Positions 2,031-62,227 of a DNA stretch of 64,000 bases are shown piece after piece. The translations under genes were made by a program, and so were the position numbers. Numbering within the stretch: position 1 is the stretch's first letter; each line of letters opens with the position of its first letter. The DNA lies in assembly GCF_018309085.1 (NCBI RefSeq), contig NZ_CP070502.1, forward strand, positions 744,001 to 808,000, written 5' to 3'. Under the pieces are notes generated by a model, which saw only the letters and a list, made by a program, of their open reading frames with translations, had not been told where the DNA came from and did no database searches. This DNA comes from Sporosarcina sp. Marseille-Q4063. Its GTDB lineage: Bacteria; Bacillota; Bacilli; Bacillales_A; Planococcaceae.

Positions 2031-2095
2031 AATATTTCCTCCCTTCGTAATAATCTAAGTATACTAAGAGCAGCTGGATATTTCAAAAAAACTTT

Positions 2096-2127
2096 AAAAA
2101 ACCGCCCCGGAATAAATTCCGAGACGG
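2096..2127 (-). terminator. Terminator of SASP gene 1
   Basis: An 11-bp GC-rich stem (CCGTCTCGGAA pairing with TTCCGGGGCGG through G-U wobbles) with a 4-base loop, followed by T residues on the minus strand. Nearly the same hairpin follows each of the three SASP genes. Confidence 0.85.
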
Positions 2128-2142
2128 CTTTCATTTACTTAA

Positions 2143-2355
2143 TTATTGGTTTTGATTTCCACTCATTTGTGATTGGGCTTGACGGACTAATCGCTTTGTA
2201 ATTTCTCCGCCGACGGATCCGTTGGCACGCGATGTCGTGTCTGGTCCCATTTGAACACCGAACTCTGAAGCAATTTCGTTCTTCATTTGATCAAGTGCCT
2301 GTCTGACTCCTGGTACTAGAAGTTGGTTTGAGTTGTTTCCACCACTGTTTGGCAT
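2143..2355 (-). CDS. Alpha/beta-type small acid-soluble spore protein (copy 1)
   Basis: A 70-residue alpha/beta-type SASP, which coats and protects DNA in the dormant spore and is degraded by the GPR protease at germination. The GPR-site motif NEIASEFGV lies at about residues 26-34, and the second conserved block [13 protein letters not shown] is near the C-terminus. The start MPNSGG is chosen because AAGGAGGTG sits just upstream; the open frame runs further but would include the promoter. It has its own sigma-G promoter and terminator. Its DNA is closer to copy 3 than to the adjacent copy 2. Confidence 0.95.
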
Positions 2356-2378
2356 GACTAACACCTCCTTGTGACATA

Positions 2379-2407
2379 TAGAATGCACCGGGATGAAAAA
2401 ATCATAC
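2379..2407 (-). promoter_or_regulatory. Sigma-G promoter of SASP gene 1
   Basis: The minus strand reads GTATG (2407-2403), a 17-base spacer, then CATTCTA (2385-2379). This fits the forespore sigma-G consensus GHATR-N17/18-CATNHTA exactly. Confidence 0.88.
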
Positions 2408-2460
2408 ACAACATGAATTCTTAGTAAACTCGAGGCAGCTCAATAAGTCAAAAAACTTTT

Positions 2461-2492
2461 AAAAAACGCCCCGGAATAAATTCCGAGACGGC
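2461..2492 (-). terminator. Terminator of SASP gene 2
   Basis: The same GC-rich hairpin as after copy 1, with a few substitutions, followed by a T-rich stretch on the minus strand. Confidence 0.82.
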
Positions 2493-2506
2493 CTTCATTT
2501 AGTTAA

Positions 2507-2716
2507 TTATTGGTTTTGTTGTCCACTCATTTGTGATTGGGCTTGACGAACTAATCGCTTAGTTATTTCTCCGCCGACGGATCCGTTGGCACGCGACGTC
2601 GTATCTGATCCCATTTGAACTCCGAACTCTGATGCGATTTCGTTTTTCATTTGATCGAGTGCCTGTCTTACTCCTGGTACTAGAAGTTGGTTTGAGTTAC
2701 CACCACTGTTTGGCAT
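2507..2716 (-). CDS. Alpha/beta-type small acid-soluble spore protein (copy 2)
   Basis: A 69-residue alpha/beta-type SASP with the GPR-site motif NEIASEFGV and the C-terminal [13 protein letters not shown] block. It differs from copies 1 and 3 by GSDTTSR in place of GPDTTSR and by a QQNQ tail. The MPNSGG start is preceded by AAGGAGGTG. The longer open frame in this phase runs through the promoter and the previous terminator and is not translated. It is the middle member of a tandem triplication with a period of about 360 bp that includes promoter, gene and terminator. Confidence 0.95.
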
Positions 2717-2739
2717 GACTAACACCTCCTTATAAAATA

Positions 2740-2768
2740 TAGAATGCACAGGAATGAAAAAATCATGC
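2740..2768 (-). promoter_or_regulatory. Sigma-G promoter of SASP gene 2
   Basis: GCATG (2768-2764), a 17-base spacer, then CATTCTA (2746-2740) on the minus strand matches the sigma-G consensus. Confidence 0.88.
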
Positions 2769-2809
2769 AAAACACTATTTATCAGTAAACTTAGAGCAGC
2801 TGGATATTT

Positions 2810-2841
2810 AAAAAACCGCCCCGGAATAAATTCCGAGACGG
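2810..2841 (-). terminator. Terminator of SASP gene 3
   Basis: Near-identical copy of the SASP gene 1 terminator hairpin, followed by a T run on the minus strand. Confidence 0.85.
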
Positions 2842-2863
2842 CTTTCATTTACTTAATTAATGG

Positions 2864-3073
2864 TTATTGTTGTTTTCCGCTCATTTGTGATTGGGCTTGA
2901 CGAACTAATCGCTTTGTAATTTCTCCGCCGACGGATCCGTTGGCACGCGATGTCGTGTCTGGTCCCATTTGAACACCGAACTCTGAAGCAATTTCGTTCT
3001 TCATTTGATCAAGTGCCTGTCTTACTCCTGGAACTAGAAGTTGGTTTGAGTTACCGCTGTTGTTGTTTGGCAT
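2864..3073 (-). CDS. Alpha/beta-type small acid-soluble spore protein (copy 3)
   Basis: A 69-residue alpha/beta-type SASP, first of the three in transcription order. It carries the [12 protein letters not shown]-site motif, GPDTTSR and [13 protein letters not shown]. The N-terminal Asn-rich stretch (NNNSGNSN) and the C-terminal GKQQ tail are its main differences. A GGAGGTG ribosome site precedes the ATG. Long stretches are identical in DNA to copy 1 although copy 2 lies between them. Confidence 0.95.
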
Positions 3074-3096
3074 GACTAACACCTCCTTGTGACATA

Positions 3097-3125
3097 TAGA
3101 ATGCACCGGAATGAAAAAATCATGC
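3097..3125 (-). promoter_or_regulatory. Sigma-G promoter of SASP gene 3
   Basis: GCATG (3125-3121), a 17-base spacer, then CATTCTA (3103-3097) on the minus strand matches the sigma-G consensus. Confidence 0.88.
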
Positions 3126-11476: not shown

Positions 11477-11604
11477 GTAGGTTCAAAGCCCTGTTTTGCG
11501 GATATATGTGAAAAATGCGCCGATATGTCGTTCTAAATGTCGGATATACGGTTCAAATCGTCGGATATATGCATCAAACCTACGGATATCCGGAGCACAC
11601 TCCC
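11477..11604. repeat. 21-bp tandem repeat array A2 (five units)
   Basis: GATAT occurs at 11501, 11522, 11543, 11564 and 11585, an exact 21-bp period. The unit consensus is roughly AAATNGTCGGATATNYGNNTC, and the last unit contains the perfect palindrome CGGATATCCG. It lies between the DUF2383 gene and the cobalamin-binding-protein gene. The outer parts match array A1. Confidence 0.85.
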
Positions 11605-39171: not shown

Positions 39172-39294
39172 TTTTTAATCCTTCCAATCTCTACTATAAA
39201 ATCTACTCTTAATAGTTTACCCCCGAATATCGTATTTAACAACGAATAACCGCGGAATGTGTATAATGGAGGAAAACGAAAGCGTGGTCTATAT

Positions 39295-40560
39295 ATGTAT
39301 GACGTAATAATAATTGGCGGTGGGCCATCAGGTTTAATGGCTTCCATTGCCGCTGCGGAAAACGGACAAAAAGTTCTTCTGCTTGAAAAAGGAAAAAAGC
39401 TTGGGACTAAACTCGCTATTTCCGGAGGCGGCCGCTGTAATGTGACGAATCGATTGCCTCAAGAAGAAATCATTAAAAACATTCCTGGTAATGGAAGATT
39501 TTTATATGGCCCGTTTTCTGTGTTCAATAATGAAGATATCATTAACTTTTTCGAAGGTCTCGGCGTTGCTTTAAAAGAAGAAGATCATGGACGCATGTTT
39601 CCCGTTTCCAATAAAGCCCGAGATGTAGTAAATGCAATGTTGACGGAAATGGATCGGTTGAATGTAGAAAAGAGACTTGAAACTCGTGTTGAAAAGTTGC
39701 TAATGAACGATGAAAAAATACTCGGCGTCCGATTGACAACTGGCGAGGAAATCCGCACAAAAGCCGTTGTGCTTGCAGTTGGTGGTAAAGCAGTACCGCA
39801 AACAGGAAGCACGGGAGATGGCTATCCATGGGCTGAAAAAGCAGGGCATACGATTACGAAGCTATTCCCGACCGAAGTCCCTTTATTGTCGAATGAATCA
39901 TTTATCGTTGCGAAAGAATTGCAAGGTCTCGCACTTCGCGATGTAGCGGTTTCCGTCTTGAACGGGAAAGGCAAAACATTGGTCACCCATCAAATGGACA
40001 TGTTATTTACTCATTTCGGATTAAGCGGGCCGGCCATTTTAAGATGCAGTCAGTTTGTAGTTAAAGAACGTATGAAAAATGGAAATGTTCCCGTTGACAT
40101 GAAAATCGACTCCATGCCGTCAATGAATGAAGAACAAGTATTTCAACTGCTGAATAAGACGGTTAAAGAGGATCCGAAAAAACAAGTGAATAATTCATTG
40201 AAAGGAATCGTTCCGGAACGATGGTTATTCTTTTTATTTGACCGCGCCGGCATCGAGCAATCCGATATTGGTGCTACAATGTCCGCGGATAAACTTCGCT
40301 CGCTCGCTAAACTACTTAAGGCTTTCACGATGACGGTTAACGGCTCGCAACCTATGGAAAAAGCATTTGTTACAGGCGGCGGTGTTTCCGTTAAAGAAAT
40401 CGTTCCAAAAACGATGGCATCACGTAAGAAAGATGGCCTGTACTTCTGCGGTGAAATTTTAGACATCCACGGCTATACTGGTGGTTATAATATTACATCT
40501 GCATTGGTTACGGGCAGAATTGCTGGGATGAATGCTGGGGAGTATGCGACTGGGTTGTAA
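39295..40560 (+). CDS. ytfP: FAD-dependent HI0933/YtfP-type flavoprotein
   Basis: A 421-residue NAD(P)/FAD-dependent oxidoreductase of the HI0933 family. The dinucleotide-binding motif [20 protein letters not shown] is at the extreme N-terminus, the family signature [16 protein letters not shown] follows, and a C-terminal [15 protein letters not shown] motif binds FAD. Substrate is unknown. The start is set at the ATG at 39295 because the FAD motif begins directly after; the ribosome site is weak, and a GGAGG lies too far upstream. TATAAT at 39261-39266 may be its -10 box. Confidence 0.9.
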
Positions 40561-40577
40561 ACTACTTTGATTTATCA

Positions 40578-40622
40578 TTAAACCAACTTCAGATGCCATG
40601 GCATCTGAAGCTGGTTTTTCTT
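40578..40622 (+). terminator. Terminator of ytfP
   Basis: AAACCAACTTCAGATGCC pairs with GGCATCTGAAGCTGGTTT almost perfectly, with T residues after it. Confidence 0.88.
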
Positions 40623-40626
40623 GTGT

Positions 40627-41150
40627 TCGGAGTTTGTTCCCGTAACGGACCGTGTTGCTCCCGTTACGCAGATGGTTATTACCGTAACGGAGTATATTGT
40701 TCTCGTAACGGGTTTGTGTCATAGTTTATTCCCGTATCGCAACGCGTTGCTCCCGTTGCGTAGGTGGTTATTCCCGTAACGGAGTAGATTGTTCCTGTAA
40801 CGGGATTGCATCGGAGTTTATTCCCGTATCGCACCGTGTTGCTCCCGTTGCGTAGGTGGTTATTCCCGTATCGGGGTTGGTTGTTCCCGTAACGGATTTC
40901 TGCCCGAGTTTATTCCCGTATCGCGCCATGTTGCTCCCGTTGCGCAGGTAGTTATTCCCGTATCGTGGTTGGTTGTTCCCGCAACGGATTTCCGCTGGAG
41001 TTTATTCCCGTATCGCACCATGTTGCTTCCGTTACAGGCCGTTATTCCCGTATCGGGGTTGGTTGTTCCCGTAACGGGTTTCCGCCGGATTTTATTCCCG
41101 TAGCAGACTTGATTGTTCCCGTATCGGCTTTGCTACACTTTTATTCCTAG
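40627..41150. repeat. Nested tandem array B: 23-bp units inside a 92-bp higher-order repeat
   Basis: The AGTTT that opens each 92-bp block occurs at 40631, 40723, 40815, 40907 and 40999, exactly 92 bases apart, and its variant at 41089 after 90. Each block has four 23-base units with the core TTCCCGTAACGG or TTCCCGTATCGG, for example AGTTTATTCCCGTATCGCAC, GTTGCTCCCGTTGCGTAGG, TATTCCCGTATCGGGG and TTCCCGTAACGGATTT. About 23 cores can be counted. The period is not a multiple of three, so no protein is encoded. It fills the convergent ytfP-leuS gap between two terminators. Confidence 0.95.
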
Positions 41151-41159
41151 TTTCCATCA

Positions 41160-41212
41160 AATAAAAAGAGTGCCACCCCCTTCCGATAAAGGGTGGTGCA
41201 CTCTTTTTTATG
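41160..41212 (-). terminator. Terminator of leuS
   Basis: AAAGAGTGCACCACCC pairs with GGGGTGGCACTCTTT across a short loop, with T runs on both sides. Confidence 0.9.
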
Positions 41213-41233: not shown

Positions 41234-43651
41234 TCACGGAGCAACAATATTCACCAATCTACCCGGAATACCAATTATTTTCTTCACTTCTTTACCATCA
41301 ATGAATCCTTGCACTGTTGCGTCTTGCAGAGCCAGTTCTTCAAGCTCTTCTTTCGTACTGTCTTTCGCTACGACGATTCTCGCACGTACTTTTCCGTTAA
41401 TCTGAACGGCGATTTCTACCGTATCATCGACAAGTTTCGACTCATCATACGTCGGCCATGATTCGTACGTAATCGTATCGTCATGTCCAAGCTTTTCCCA
41501 AAGTTCTTCTGCAAGATGCGGAACAATTGGCGATATTAATTTAACGAAGCCCGCCGCATACTCAGTCGGAACTGAATCAGCTTTATAGCATTCATTGATA
41601 AATACCATAAGCTGAGAAATTGCCGTGTTATTATGCATCGCTTCAAAATCTTCGGTCACTTTTTTCACAGTCTGATGATACACTTTTTCAAGTAGTCCCG
41701 TTGATTCTCCGCCGATTTTCTCGCCTAATGAACCATCTTCATTTACATATAAACGCCAAATTCGATCAAGGAATCGACGTGCACCGTCAAGTCCATTCGT
41801 ATTCCATGCTTTCGATGCATCAAGCGGCCCCATGAACATTTCATATAGACGCAGTGAATCCGCACCGTGTGAATGAACAATATCATCAGGATTAATGACA
41901 TTCCCAATCGATTTGGACATTTTTTCATTGCCTTCGCCTAAAATCATGCCTTGGTTGAACAATTTTTGGAAAGGCTCTTTTGTTTCAACAACGCCGATAT
42001 CGTAAAGGACCTTGTGCCAAAAACGTGCGTACAATAAGTGAAGTACGGCATGTTCCGCACCGCCTACATAAATGTCTACTGGCAACCAACGTTTCGCAAG
42101 TTCCGGGTCAATAATCATTTCATCATTATCTGGATCGATGTAGCGCAGGTAATACCAACAGCTTCCTGCCCACTGCGGCATCGTATTCGTTTCGCGGCGT
42201 CCCTTCATACCAGTTTCCGGGTCAACTACGTTGATCCACTCTTCGATATTCGCCAGTGGCGATTCGCCTGTTCCGCTCGGTTTAATATTATTTGTGACCG
42301 GCAACGTCAACGGTAACTCGGATTCGTCTAGCGCAGTCATCGTGCCATCTTCCCAATGAATAATCGGAATCGGCTCGCCCCAATAACGCTGTCTTGAAAA
42401 CAGCCAATCGCGTAATCGGTATGAAATTTTCTTTTCGCCTTTGCCTTGCTCGACAAACCATGCAATTGCTTTTTCAATTGCTTCATCTTTACCAAGCCCA
42501 TCTAAGAATCTGGAATTAACATGTTTTCCATCACCAATATATGCTTCTTTTGAAATATCGCCGCCTGCAACAACTTCGACAATAGGCAGGTCAAATTTTT
42601 CCGCAAACTCATAGTCGCGTTCATCATGCGCCGGTACGGCCATAATTGCGCCTGTTCCGTATGATGCTAAAACATAATCCGCAATCCAAATCGGCATTTT
42701 CTCGCCGCTTGCAGGGTTGATTGCATAAGCACCTGTAAATACGCCTGTTTTTTCATCTGCAAGATCTGTACGTTCTAAATCGCTTTTCAGCTTCACTTCA
42801 TTCAAATAATTAGCAACCGCTTCTTGTTGTTCGTCAGTTGTAATTTGTTTCACCAATTTATGTTCAGGCGCTAGTACCGCATAAGTTGCGCCGAAAATTG
42901 TATCCGGACGCGTCGTGAATGCTTCAAAAGATAAGTCAGTTCCTTCAATATCGAATCGTAATTGTGCGCCTTCAGAACGACCAATCCAATTGCGCTGCAT
43001 ATCTTTTAAGCTTTCTGGCCAATCAAGGTCATCCAAGTCTTCAAGCAAACGATCTGCATAATTCGTAATGCGCAACACCCATTGACGCATCGGACGGCGC
43101 TCAACCGGATGTCCGCCTCGTTCAGACAAACCGTCGATGATTTCTTCGTTCGCAAGAACTGTCCCTAGGGCCGGGCACCAGTTCACATCGACTTCATCTA
43201 CATACGCTAATCCTTTATTATAAAGTTGGATGAAAATCCACTGTGTCCATTTATAATAAGACGGATCAGTCGTATTGATTTCGCGGTCCCAGTCGTAGGA
43301 AAACCCTAAATCATTCATCTGACGTTTAAAAGTCGCGATATTTTTCGCAGTAAATTCAGCTGGGTCGTTACCCGTATCGATGGCGTACTGCTCAGCAGGT
43401 AAGCCGAACGCATCCCACCCCATCGGATGAAGGACGTTATATCCTTGTTTCCGTTTAAACGAACTTAAAATATCCGTCGCGATATAACCTAGTGGATGCC
43501 CGACGTGAAGTCCTGCGCCTGACGGATATGGGAACATGTCAAGACAGTAAAACTTCTCTTTAGAAGGATCATCGACCATTTTATACGTTTTGTTTTCTTT
43601 CCAATAGTTTTGCCACTTCTTTTCAATTTGACCATGATTGTAACTACTCAT
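41234..43651 (-). CDS. leuS: Leucyl-tRNA synthetase
   Basis: An 805-residue class I synthetase with an editing domain. The HIGH equivalent reads HVGHPLGY near residues 50-57 and the KMSKS motif is EKMSKSIGN in the C-terminal half. The CP1 editing domain between them has [11 protein letters not shown] and [10 protein letters not shown]. The ATG at 43651 is preceded by GGAGGAGG; a longer frame exists but starts within that site. A T-box leader precedes it. Bacterial-type length. Confidence 0.97.
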
Positions 43652-43677
43652 GTCTTCTTCCTCCTCCAAAATAAAAA

Positions 43678-43932
43678 ATCCCGTCCCTTAAAAAATATAA
43701 GGGACGAGATTTGTTTACAAACTCCCGCGGTGCCACCCAAATTGACGGATAACCGTCCAACTTGTTTCCTTAACGCGGATAACGGTAAAAGCTACTACGT
43801 TTCGCTCCTACTGGCTCCGAGGCGAGTTCACCTAGCTATATCACCTATCGACTTGCACCAACCGTCGACTCTCTAGTTGTGATATAAAAAGACTAATGAT
43901 CCTCTTCAATGCCGTTACTATTGGTTCTAGCT
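43678..43932 (-). promoter_or_regulatory. T-box leader of leuS
   Basis: Minus strand: stem I region with AGAGAGTC, a candidate CTC (Leu) specifier at 43826-43824 inside GAACTCG, the T-box GGGTGGCACCGCGGG near 43735-43720, and a terminator with GTCCCTTA pairing with TAAGGGAC (43681-43708) and a T run. The arrangement matches leucyl T-boxes. Confidence 0.92.
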
Positions 43933-45491: not shown

Positions 45492-45603
45492 TTTGCTTGC
45501 GCTTCTATGCAGTTTGCTTGCACTCTTATCCGATTTGCTTGCACTTCGATGGGATTTGCTTGCACTCAAAATAATTTGCTTGCAAGTCGGGACCTTTTAC
45601 CCG
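45492..45603. repeat. 21-bp tandem repeat array C (five units)
   Basis: TTTGCTTGC occurs at 45492, 45513, 45534, 45555 and 45575: steps of 21, 21, 21 and 20. The unit is roughly TTTGCTTGCACTTNNATNNGA. The last unit reads TTTGCTTGCAAG and so contains the palindrome CTTGCAAG. It lies in the 440-base gap between scoA and the MFS gene, 160-270 bases upstream of scoA. Not coding. Confidence 0.88.
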
Positions 45604-62058: not shown

Positions 62059-62083
62059 TAGTTGAATCCAATTACATAATATT

Positions 62084-62175
62084 CACCACTAGGGGTGCTC
62101 GAAAAGAGCTGAGACTGGCGAATGCCTAAACCCTTTCAACTTGAACCAGATAATACTGGCGTAAGGAAGAGGTGC
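62084..62175 (+). promoter_or_regulatory. TPP riboswitch (THI element)
   Basis: The conserved sequence blocks are all present in order: ACTAGGGGTGCTC, GAGCTGAGA, AAACCCTTTCAACTTGAACC, GATAATACTGGCGTA and GGAAG. It binds thiamine diphosphate. A terminator follows directly (62228-62259), so the mechanism is premature termination when TPP is plentiful. Confidence 0.95.
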
Positions 62176-62227
62176 TGACGCATAAATTCTACCCGTCTAT
62201 TTACGAGGATAAAATTTGACTGTCTAC

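Follow-up and report, generated by a model that had tools for sequence, protein, structure and literature searches.

Tandem arrays of short words at two-turn spacing between genes of Sporosarcina and other Bacillales as putative phased sites of a DNA-binding protein

Introduction

The spacer between ytfP and leuS of Sporosarcina sp. Marseille-Q4063 (genome G000) carries a tandem array at about positions 40634-41133 of the stretch of 64,000 nt that we analysed, here called the window. What is repeated in this array, is it peculiar to this spacer, and what may it be for? A first-pass annotation made from the sequence alone had described 23-bp units in 92-bp blocks and had suggested either a DNA-binding role or selfish or slippage-driven expansion. 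We compared the array with others in the same genome, in 68 genomes of the genus (one genome per species) and in other Bacillales.

Results

The window array consists of 22 asymmetric 14-bp sites of one word (TTRYTCYCGTNNCG, word 1; cut-off, 12 of 14 letters). The steps between the sites are 21, 21, 21 and 29 bp, four times over, and then 21, 19, 21, 29 and 21 bp, and the 92-bp blocks arise from 21+21+21+29 bp. The five block starts exactly 92 bp apart and the sixth 90 bp further on had been correctly described (Table 1), and Tandem Repeats Finder (TRF) likewise gave a period of 92 with 5.2 copies (score 614). On the other hand, the 23-bp unit was not found: 23 is only the mean of the steps in a block, and the autocorrelation of the array exceeded 0.42 at lags 21, 50, 71, 92, 113 and 184 but not at 23. 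The expansion that had been proposed, from 23 to 92 bp first, is replaced by the 21+21+21+29 layout. Similarly, the core TTCCCGTAACGG does not recur in every unit as claimed, its central letters varying among units, and the near-dyad is not the conserved feature, because CGTWACG occurs in only 7 of the 22 window units and in 76 of 432 units over all loci. For the looser pattern YCCCGTWNCG the window has 17 matches, of which 16 fall inside the array, against 1.00 expected; none of 100 shuffles reached this count. The terminator-like hairpins that the annotation had placed on both sides do point inward to the array. A short repeat with a period of 21 bp (2.3-2.7 copies) also lies at 11522-11589 of the window.

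Table 1. Features of the ytfP-leuS spacer and of the word-2 array nearby (positions in the window)
Feature	Position	Strand	Remark
ytfP-type flavoprotein gene, upstream of the array	39259..40560	+	433 aa ORF as listed; relatives in 68/68 genus genomes
Intrinsic-terminator-like hairpin at the ytfP end	40587..40610	+	facing the array
Block 1	40634..40725	+	four TTRYTCYCGTNNCG-type sites at +0, +21, +42, +63, then 29-bp step
Block 2	40726..40817	+	layout as block 1
Block 3	40818..40909	+	layout as block 1
Block 4	40910..41001	+	layout as block 1
Block 5	41002..41091	+	90 bp; steps 21, 19, 21, 29
Final two sites of the window array	41092..41133	+	21 apart
Terminator-like hairpin of leuS	41173..41196	-	facing the array
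leuS, convergent neighbour	41234..43669	-	ORF as listed; true start probably slightly inside
Word-2 array	45492..45594	+	TTTGCTTGCRCT units at 45492, 45513, 45534, 45555; end unit TTTGCTTGCAAGTCGGGACC at 45575 (20-bp step)

The array is not alone in its genome. When G000 and its relatives were scanned for further arrays, as the first-pass annotation had suggested, a sequence-only block model gave 73 matches on both strands of G000, which were grouped by hand into 25 loci, and under stricter filters a search of the 68 genus genomes gave 40 matches in 15 loci of S. jiandibaonis. Eleven further genomes showed weak matches; at least seven of these genomes carry arrays of other words (judged by eye), and the matches of the others are coding or unclear. 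Two G000 loci (861099 and 3569305) fail a three-site criterion, so that 23 arrays of G000 and 15 of S. jiandibaonis make up the set of 38 word-1 arrays used below. G000 has 136 exact copies of word 1 and S. jiandibaonis has 57, where the reversed controls have 2 and 0; in G012, G005, G240 and G206 the genomes and their reversed controls alike have 1-3. Among the matches listed, three exact words of G000 (415778, 520749 and 1888556) lie outside the array loci. Steps of 21/21/21/29 predominate in the arrays of both species. Moreover, six loci of G000 (L015, L022, L246, L247, L250 and L257) have in common a leader of about 27 bp close to GAAACTATAAAAGTATAGACCYGTGGA (at most 6 edits), which stands upstream of arrays of both subfamilies described below and, in at least five of the six, close behind a T run like the tail of a terminator. 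No common end was seen by eye over the 38 arrays.

Judged by flanking genes, 12 of the 15 loci of S. jiandibaonis share their spacer with an array of G000 (L269 and L252 lie near each other but not in the same spacer; at L266 an extra small ORF is predicted). The orthologous arrays of recA-rny have 33 vs 17 sites and those at L251/L267 have 3 vs 19; at one orthologous site the subfamilies differ (L017 vs L265), and the arrays between ctsR and its neighbour (L254 vs L263) lie on opposite strands in the two species. Since copy number varies between orthologous arrays, subfamily sometimes and orientation once, no single arrangement is needed. The first-pass annotation had taken absence from related strains as evidence against its reading of the array; S. 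jiandibaonis indeed has no site in its ytfP-leuS spacer, against 22 in G000, yet genome-wide it has its 15 loci.

Conservation is confined to the word. In a set of 165 units from 34 loci, selected for good words at -21 and +21 and not filtered on their own sequence, columns 1, 2, 6, 8, 9 and 13 hold 1.7-2.06 bits and columns 16-19 hold 0.03-0.24 bits. We also compared 29 majority blocks (19 of a CCCG type and 10 of a CTCG type) between loci, matched by block position. The identity of their core columns was 0.93-0.945, although these blocks were chosen by a core threshold that favours core identity, a bias that the 165-unit set lacks. The identity of their spacers was 0.39 in the CCCG type, 0.48 in the CTCG type and 0.26 across types, with rotated controls at 0.26-0.28, and units 92 bp apart share 0.78 of their spacer letters. 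The blocks of one subfamily thus descend from common copies, whose spacers have drifted far towards chance while the words have not. A calculation in which spacers looked random between all loci had mixed block positions and was discarded, the position-matched comparison showing residual homology within subfamilies. Recent dispersal as the sole cause was also rejected, because the spacers are too diverged between loci.

The arrays lie between genes. None of the 38 is spanned by a predicted gene (simple in-house gene caller), and 92 is no multiple of 3, which bears out the earlier view of the period as non-coding. Short predicted ORFs (45-86 aa) partly overlap six of the arrays, the window array among them, and are taken as spurious. 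Relative to the array strand, the flanking genes are same/same in 15 cases, convergent in 12, opposite/opposite in 8 and divergent in 3, and 27 of the 38 upstream genes thus share the strand of the array; a strict orientation rule for word 1 was rejected on the split of the co-directional spacers (15 same, 8 opposite). In 29 of the 38 cases there is a terminator no more than about 110 bp away that faces the array, against 0.1 in letter shuffles, although array-free gene ends often have terminators too, and convergent spacers are over-represented (9/33 vs 5/64, p=0.015), both counts taking in orthologous pairs. For 24 arrays of other Bacillales, 9 have a facing terminator, against 0.35 in shuffles. 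The neighbours, as judged by eye, are ordinary housekeeping genes such as ftsZ, lexA, recA, rny, tuf, purD and argF.

A second word, TTTGCTTGCRCT (word 2), forms arrays of the same kind of spacing between other genes further on in the window and elsewhere. A plain 12-mer search, in which copies were not chosen for spacing, found 69 exact copies in G000 (reversed control, 1), and each of the 41 distances below 300 between neighbours was a multiple of 21: 21 itself in nineteen cases, 42 in fourteen, 63 in six and 84 in two. Word 2 also has a sharp core and a flatter spacer. In the 13 loci that were read there are 3-5 units each, and the end unit begins with TTGCTTGCAAGT in 12 of them and is exactly TTTGCTTGCAAGTCGGGACC in 5. 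Copies are frequent in few genomes (36 in S. jiandibaonis, 46 in G012, 27 in G223, 15 in G239 and 12 in G206) and number 0-7 in the other 62 of 68. At the window site of word 2, G012 has the array and S. jiandibaonis lacks it. The idea that G012 had lost the system through loss of a protein was dropped, because this genome is without word 1 and yet has its word-2 copies. GC skew places the replication origin of G000 at about 2.36-2.40 Mb and the terminus near 0.4 Mb; relative to these, 25 of the 28 word-2 loci (grouped by hand) are on the non-leading strand (p=2.7e-5), and the 25 word-1 loci are split 14 vs 11 with no bias. Strand-biased spread is known for single-strand transposition. Some elements, for example IS608 and ISDra2, are reported to target the lagging-strand template (PMC6006769).

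To see the ytfP-leuS spacer across the genus, we took the sequence from the end of ytfP to the first long open frame on the other strand, which was assumed to be leuS. This gave 64 of the 68 genomes; four were left out for contig ends or partial genes. Periods of 12-59 were scanned, and a spacer was flagged when it exceeded 1.15 times the best of 20 shuffles. Thirty-seven of the 64 spacers were periodic, with a best period of 20, 21, 40 or 42 in all 37, though a few of these are weak (e.g. G237) and the genomes are related, hence not 37 independent cases; in the other 27 no significant array was found. By eye, 34 of the 37 show words specific to clades: TTATGACCGCC, TTATCACCGCC, TTATCGATCACTT, TTATTGGCGTTCA (20 bp), TTGCTTTGGACGC, TTCTTGAGCGC, AACGAGCGGGTT, TATGAGCGC and others. 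For words picked by eye from those same spacers in 21 genomes, the distance is 20 or 21 in 202 of the 239 cases below 70. The recA-rny spacer of 50 genomes served as a control and was flagged in only four, namely G000 and S. jiandibaonis (21 bp), G015 (42, with rny coding sequence included) and G232 (30, marginal); therefore the positions of arrays also vary between lineages.

The word itself may be exchanged at a standing position. On a tree of 30 ytfP genes, G016 and G010 are sisters and bear different words in this spacer. The arrays of G010 and G208 (word TTATTGGCGTTCA) are flanked on both sides, by 2 and 3 matches of at least 11/13 to TTATCGATCACTT, the word of G016 and G230. Letter shuffles gave 0.018 such matches per spacer, and there was none of at least 11/13 in 60 other spacers (18,597 bases; best, 10/13). 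Our reading is that one word has probably taken the place of another within existing arrays of G010 and G208, and we infer the direction of the change.

To look beyond the genus, we scanned GTDB contigs for TTRYTCYCG three times over at a 21-bp period. This gave at least 119 stretches, of which 33 were read (29 from Bacillales and 4 from others); a few further Bacillales stretches entered the core/spacer and terminator counts. Other Bacillales carry arrays of TTAYTCTCG; the stretches read from this order come from Neobacillus, Indiicoccus, Aquisalibacillus, Bacillus methanolicus, Lederbergia, Psychrobacillus, Mesobacillus, Gracilibacillus, S. jiandibaonis and others. Of the 29 Bacillales stretches, 12 have one or more open frames of 100 codons that run through the array and 17 have none, and the letters that follow TTAYTCTCG are specific to the taxon, as in the word TTACTCCCGTTC of B. 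methanolicus PB1. Every one of the 28 spacings below 70 in Indiicoccus equals 21, and its 19 unfiltered units (6 loci) combine a sharp core with a flat spacer. B. methanolicus resembles it, and pooled Neobacillus/Lederbergia and Aquisalibacillus have a less marked contrast between core and spacer. In G179, from another genus of the family, arrays of the TTGCTCTCGTATCG type (L058, L062 and L049) have spacings of 21, 40, 61 and 81/82 and a different higher-order layout. Repeats of a TTRCTCTCG type with a 21-bp period also occur in a Prevotellaceae MAG (L077), with further Bacteroidetes matches in related MAGs; these are possibly an independent family. Two viral contigs of IMG/VR (L341 and L342) match the three-word 21-bp pattern.

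Discussion

With moderate confidence, we regard the arrays as phased sites of a putative sequence-specific protein that binds double-stranded DNA. The array would be the cis half of a two-part system, in which each asymmetric 14-bp word may be the recognition site. The DNA helix has 10.5 bp per turn, and sites 20-21 bp apart would thus lie two turns apart on the same face, where bound molecules may stand side by side and cooperate; in the window array the sites come in groups of four set off by the 29-bp step. Side-by-side binding on one face predicts a sharp word, a free spacer and two-turn spacing. The conserved word does stand at integral helical spacing (21 and 20 bp), while the 29-bp step between groups is not integral. 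Hence the DNA-binding role first suggested for the window array is favoured by conserved core columns, drifting spacers, two-turn spacing and a geometry that recurs genome-wide and in other Bacillales. Against this reading stand the differences between orthologous arrays, the 27 ytfP-leuS spacers with no significant array and the less marked core/spacer contrast in some taxa. As to the host, our likeliest guess is that the arrays would form a platform behind the ends of transcription units, in dead space, and may insulate against read-through or supercoiling or may anchor the nucleoid; propagation of the element itself is, as a guess, nearly as likely.

Of the two kinds of expansion that the first-pass annotation had offered, simple slippage is disfavoured and a selfish dispersed element is kept as a rival. 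In the latter, the word would be recognised in trans by an enzyme resembling a transposase or a nickase, and only units with intact sites would be copied, with no gain for the host. This we consider rather unlikely, although several results speak for it: the dispersed copies of a subfamily have spacers in common at equal block positions, six loci of G000 have a leader in common, word 2 has a nearly constant end unit and a strand bias, and words are patchy, word 2 reaching 12 or more copies in six genomes only. The fixed end, the leader and the strand bias are more than plain binding sites would require. Against it, 12 of 15 positions are common to two species, word 1 has no strand bias, blastn found no plasmid or phage match for the window array, and no Y1 transposase (RAYT family) is present in 10 genomes with a flagged ytfP-leuS array. 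Namely, PF01797 occurs in 51 of 68 genus genomes, G000 itself having Y1 genes, and is absent from G009, G208, G016, G006, G019, G230, G010, G014, G246 and G247, all with flagged arrays. RAYT/Y1 transposase as a required partner was therefore rejected for lack of correlation with arrays; past mobilisation by a since-lost Y1 gene is possible. Protein binding and mobility can both be true, if the array of sites is read by an enzyme.

An element acting as RNA appears improbable. Arrays transcribed by read-through might bind an RNA-binding protein through their words or act in termination, in line with their frequent place directly behind terminators and with the upstream gene lying mostly on the array strand. 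However, RNAalifold gave a consensus of only -0.15 kcal/mol on 19 blocks, with compensatory change in 0 of 5 pairs and thus no conserved fold, and an Rfam scan of the window at gathering thresholds matched only a T-box and a TPP riboswitch, neither at the array. Orientation is also mixed among the 38 arrays, one orthologous array is inverted, and the 21-bp geometry has no evident reason in RNA. A neutral minisatellite, grown by slippage in unconstrained spacer DNA, would account for the strong variation of copy number at orthologous sites and for the similarity of spacers 92 bp apart; it is nevertheless very improbable, as conservation is confined to the word, one word recurs at 25 loci, the 37 flagged spacers have no best periods other than 20, 21, 40 and 42, and 20/21-bp arrays in the recA-rny spacer were flagged only in G000 and S. 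jiandibaonis among 50 genomes.

Returning to a protein bound at phased sites, the exchange of words may follow a change in the specificity of the protein. We propose, as a doubtful and more far-reaching extension, a satellite-like system of Bacillales in which one or more fast-evolving DNA-binding proteins would occupy two-turn word arrays behind transcription units and co-evolve with them, by analogy with the centromeric satellites of eukaryotes. Co-evolution would be expected because sister species keep the place and the spacing of an array but have exchanged its word. RsfA (TIGR02894) was considered as the reader and set aside as uninformative, being present in 68/68 genus genomes.

Known repeats resemble the arrays only in part. 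REP/BIME and REPIN elements are short dispersed intergenic sequences with hairpin units and RAYT transposases. The arrays are likewise short, dispersed, intergenic, often behind genes and made of species-specific words, but they consist of direct asymmetric words at two-turn spacing with no conserved hairpin, and they show no link with Y1_Tnp genes. Iterons of plasmid origins and parC-like partition arrays are direct repeats of roughly 20-22 bp with proteins on one DNA face. Our arrays share direct repeats of about two turns (conserved word, integral spacing), with binding that is predicted from sequence, and differ in being chromosomal, at dozens of loci among housekeeping genes and, for the window array, without plasmid match. 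The ends of Tn7/Mu-type transposons contain several transposase-binding sites; here also there are several phased sites, putatively bound by a single protein, and a defined end in word 2, but we noticed no transposon body or paired end, and there are up to 33 sites per array. VNTR/MIRU minisatellites are tandem and variable in copy number like our arrays, but there the whole unit is repeated, and here only the word is conserved between loci. CRISPR has identical repeats and unique acquired spacers, unlike the degenerate units here with spacers that recur every 92 bp. In Beggiatoaceae, the heptamer TAACTGA forms intergenic direct repeats that, as its authors propose, may act in translational regulation (PMC4679880). 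One short word is repeated between genes genome-wide as in our case, while our arrays have two-turn spacing and words that are turned over.

We found no earlier description of such arrays in the open-licence literature, and apparently they are an undescribed class of protein-binding or self-spreading DNA. If so, many Bacillales chromosomes are dotted with an element that follows a geometric rule, one word every two turns, and tools based on sequence similarity would miss this class because the letters change between species while the geometry stays. It would point to a new DNA-binding protein or a new kind of self-spreading DNA, and would offer a bacterial system for direct tests of rapid co-evolution between repeats and their reader.

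The window also holds features of other kinds. The T-box leader (43697-43918) lies upstream of leuS and the TPP riboswitch at 62081-62184, and both are expected features. At 2086-3125, nearly three tandem copies of 364 bp were recognised by eye, with small alpha/beta-SASP-like genes; this is ordinary gene duplication.
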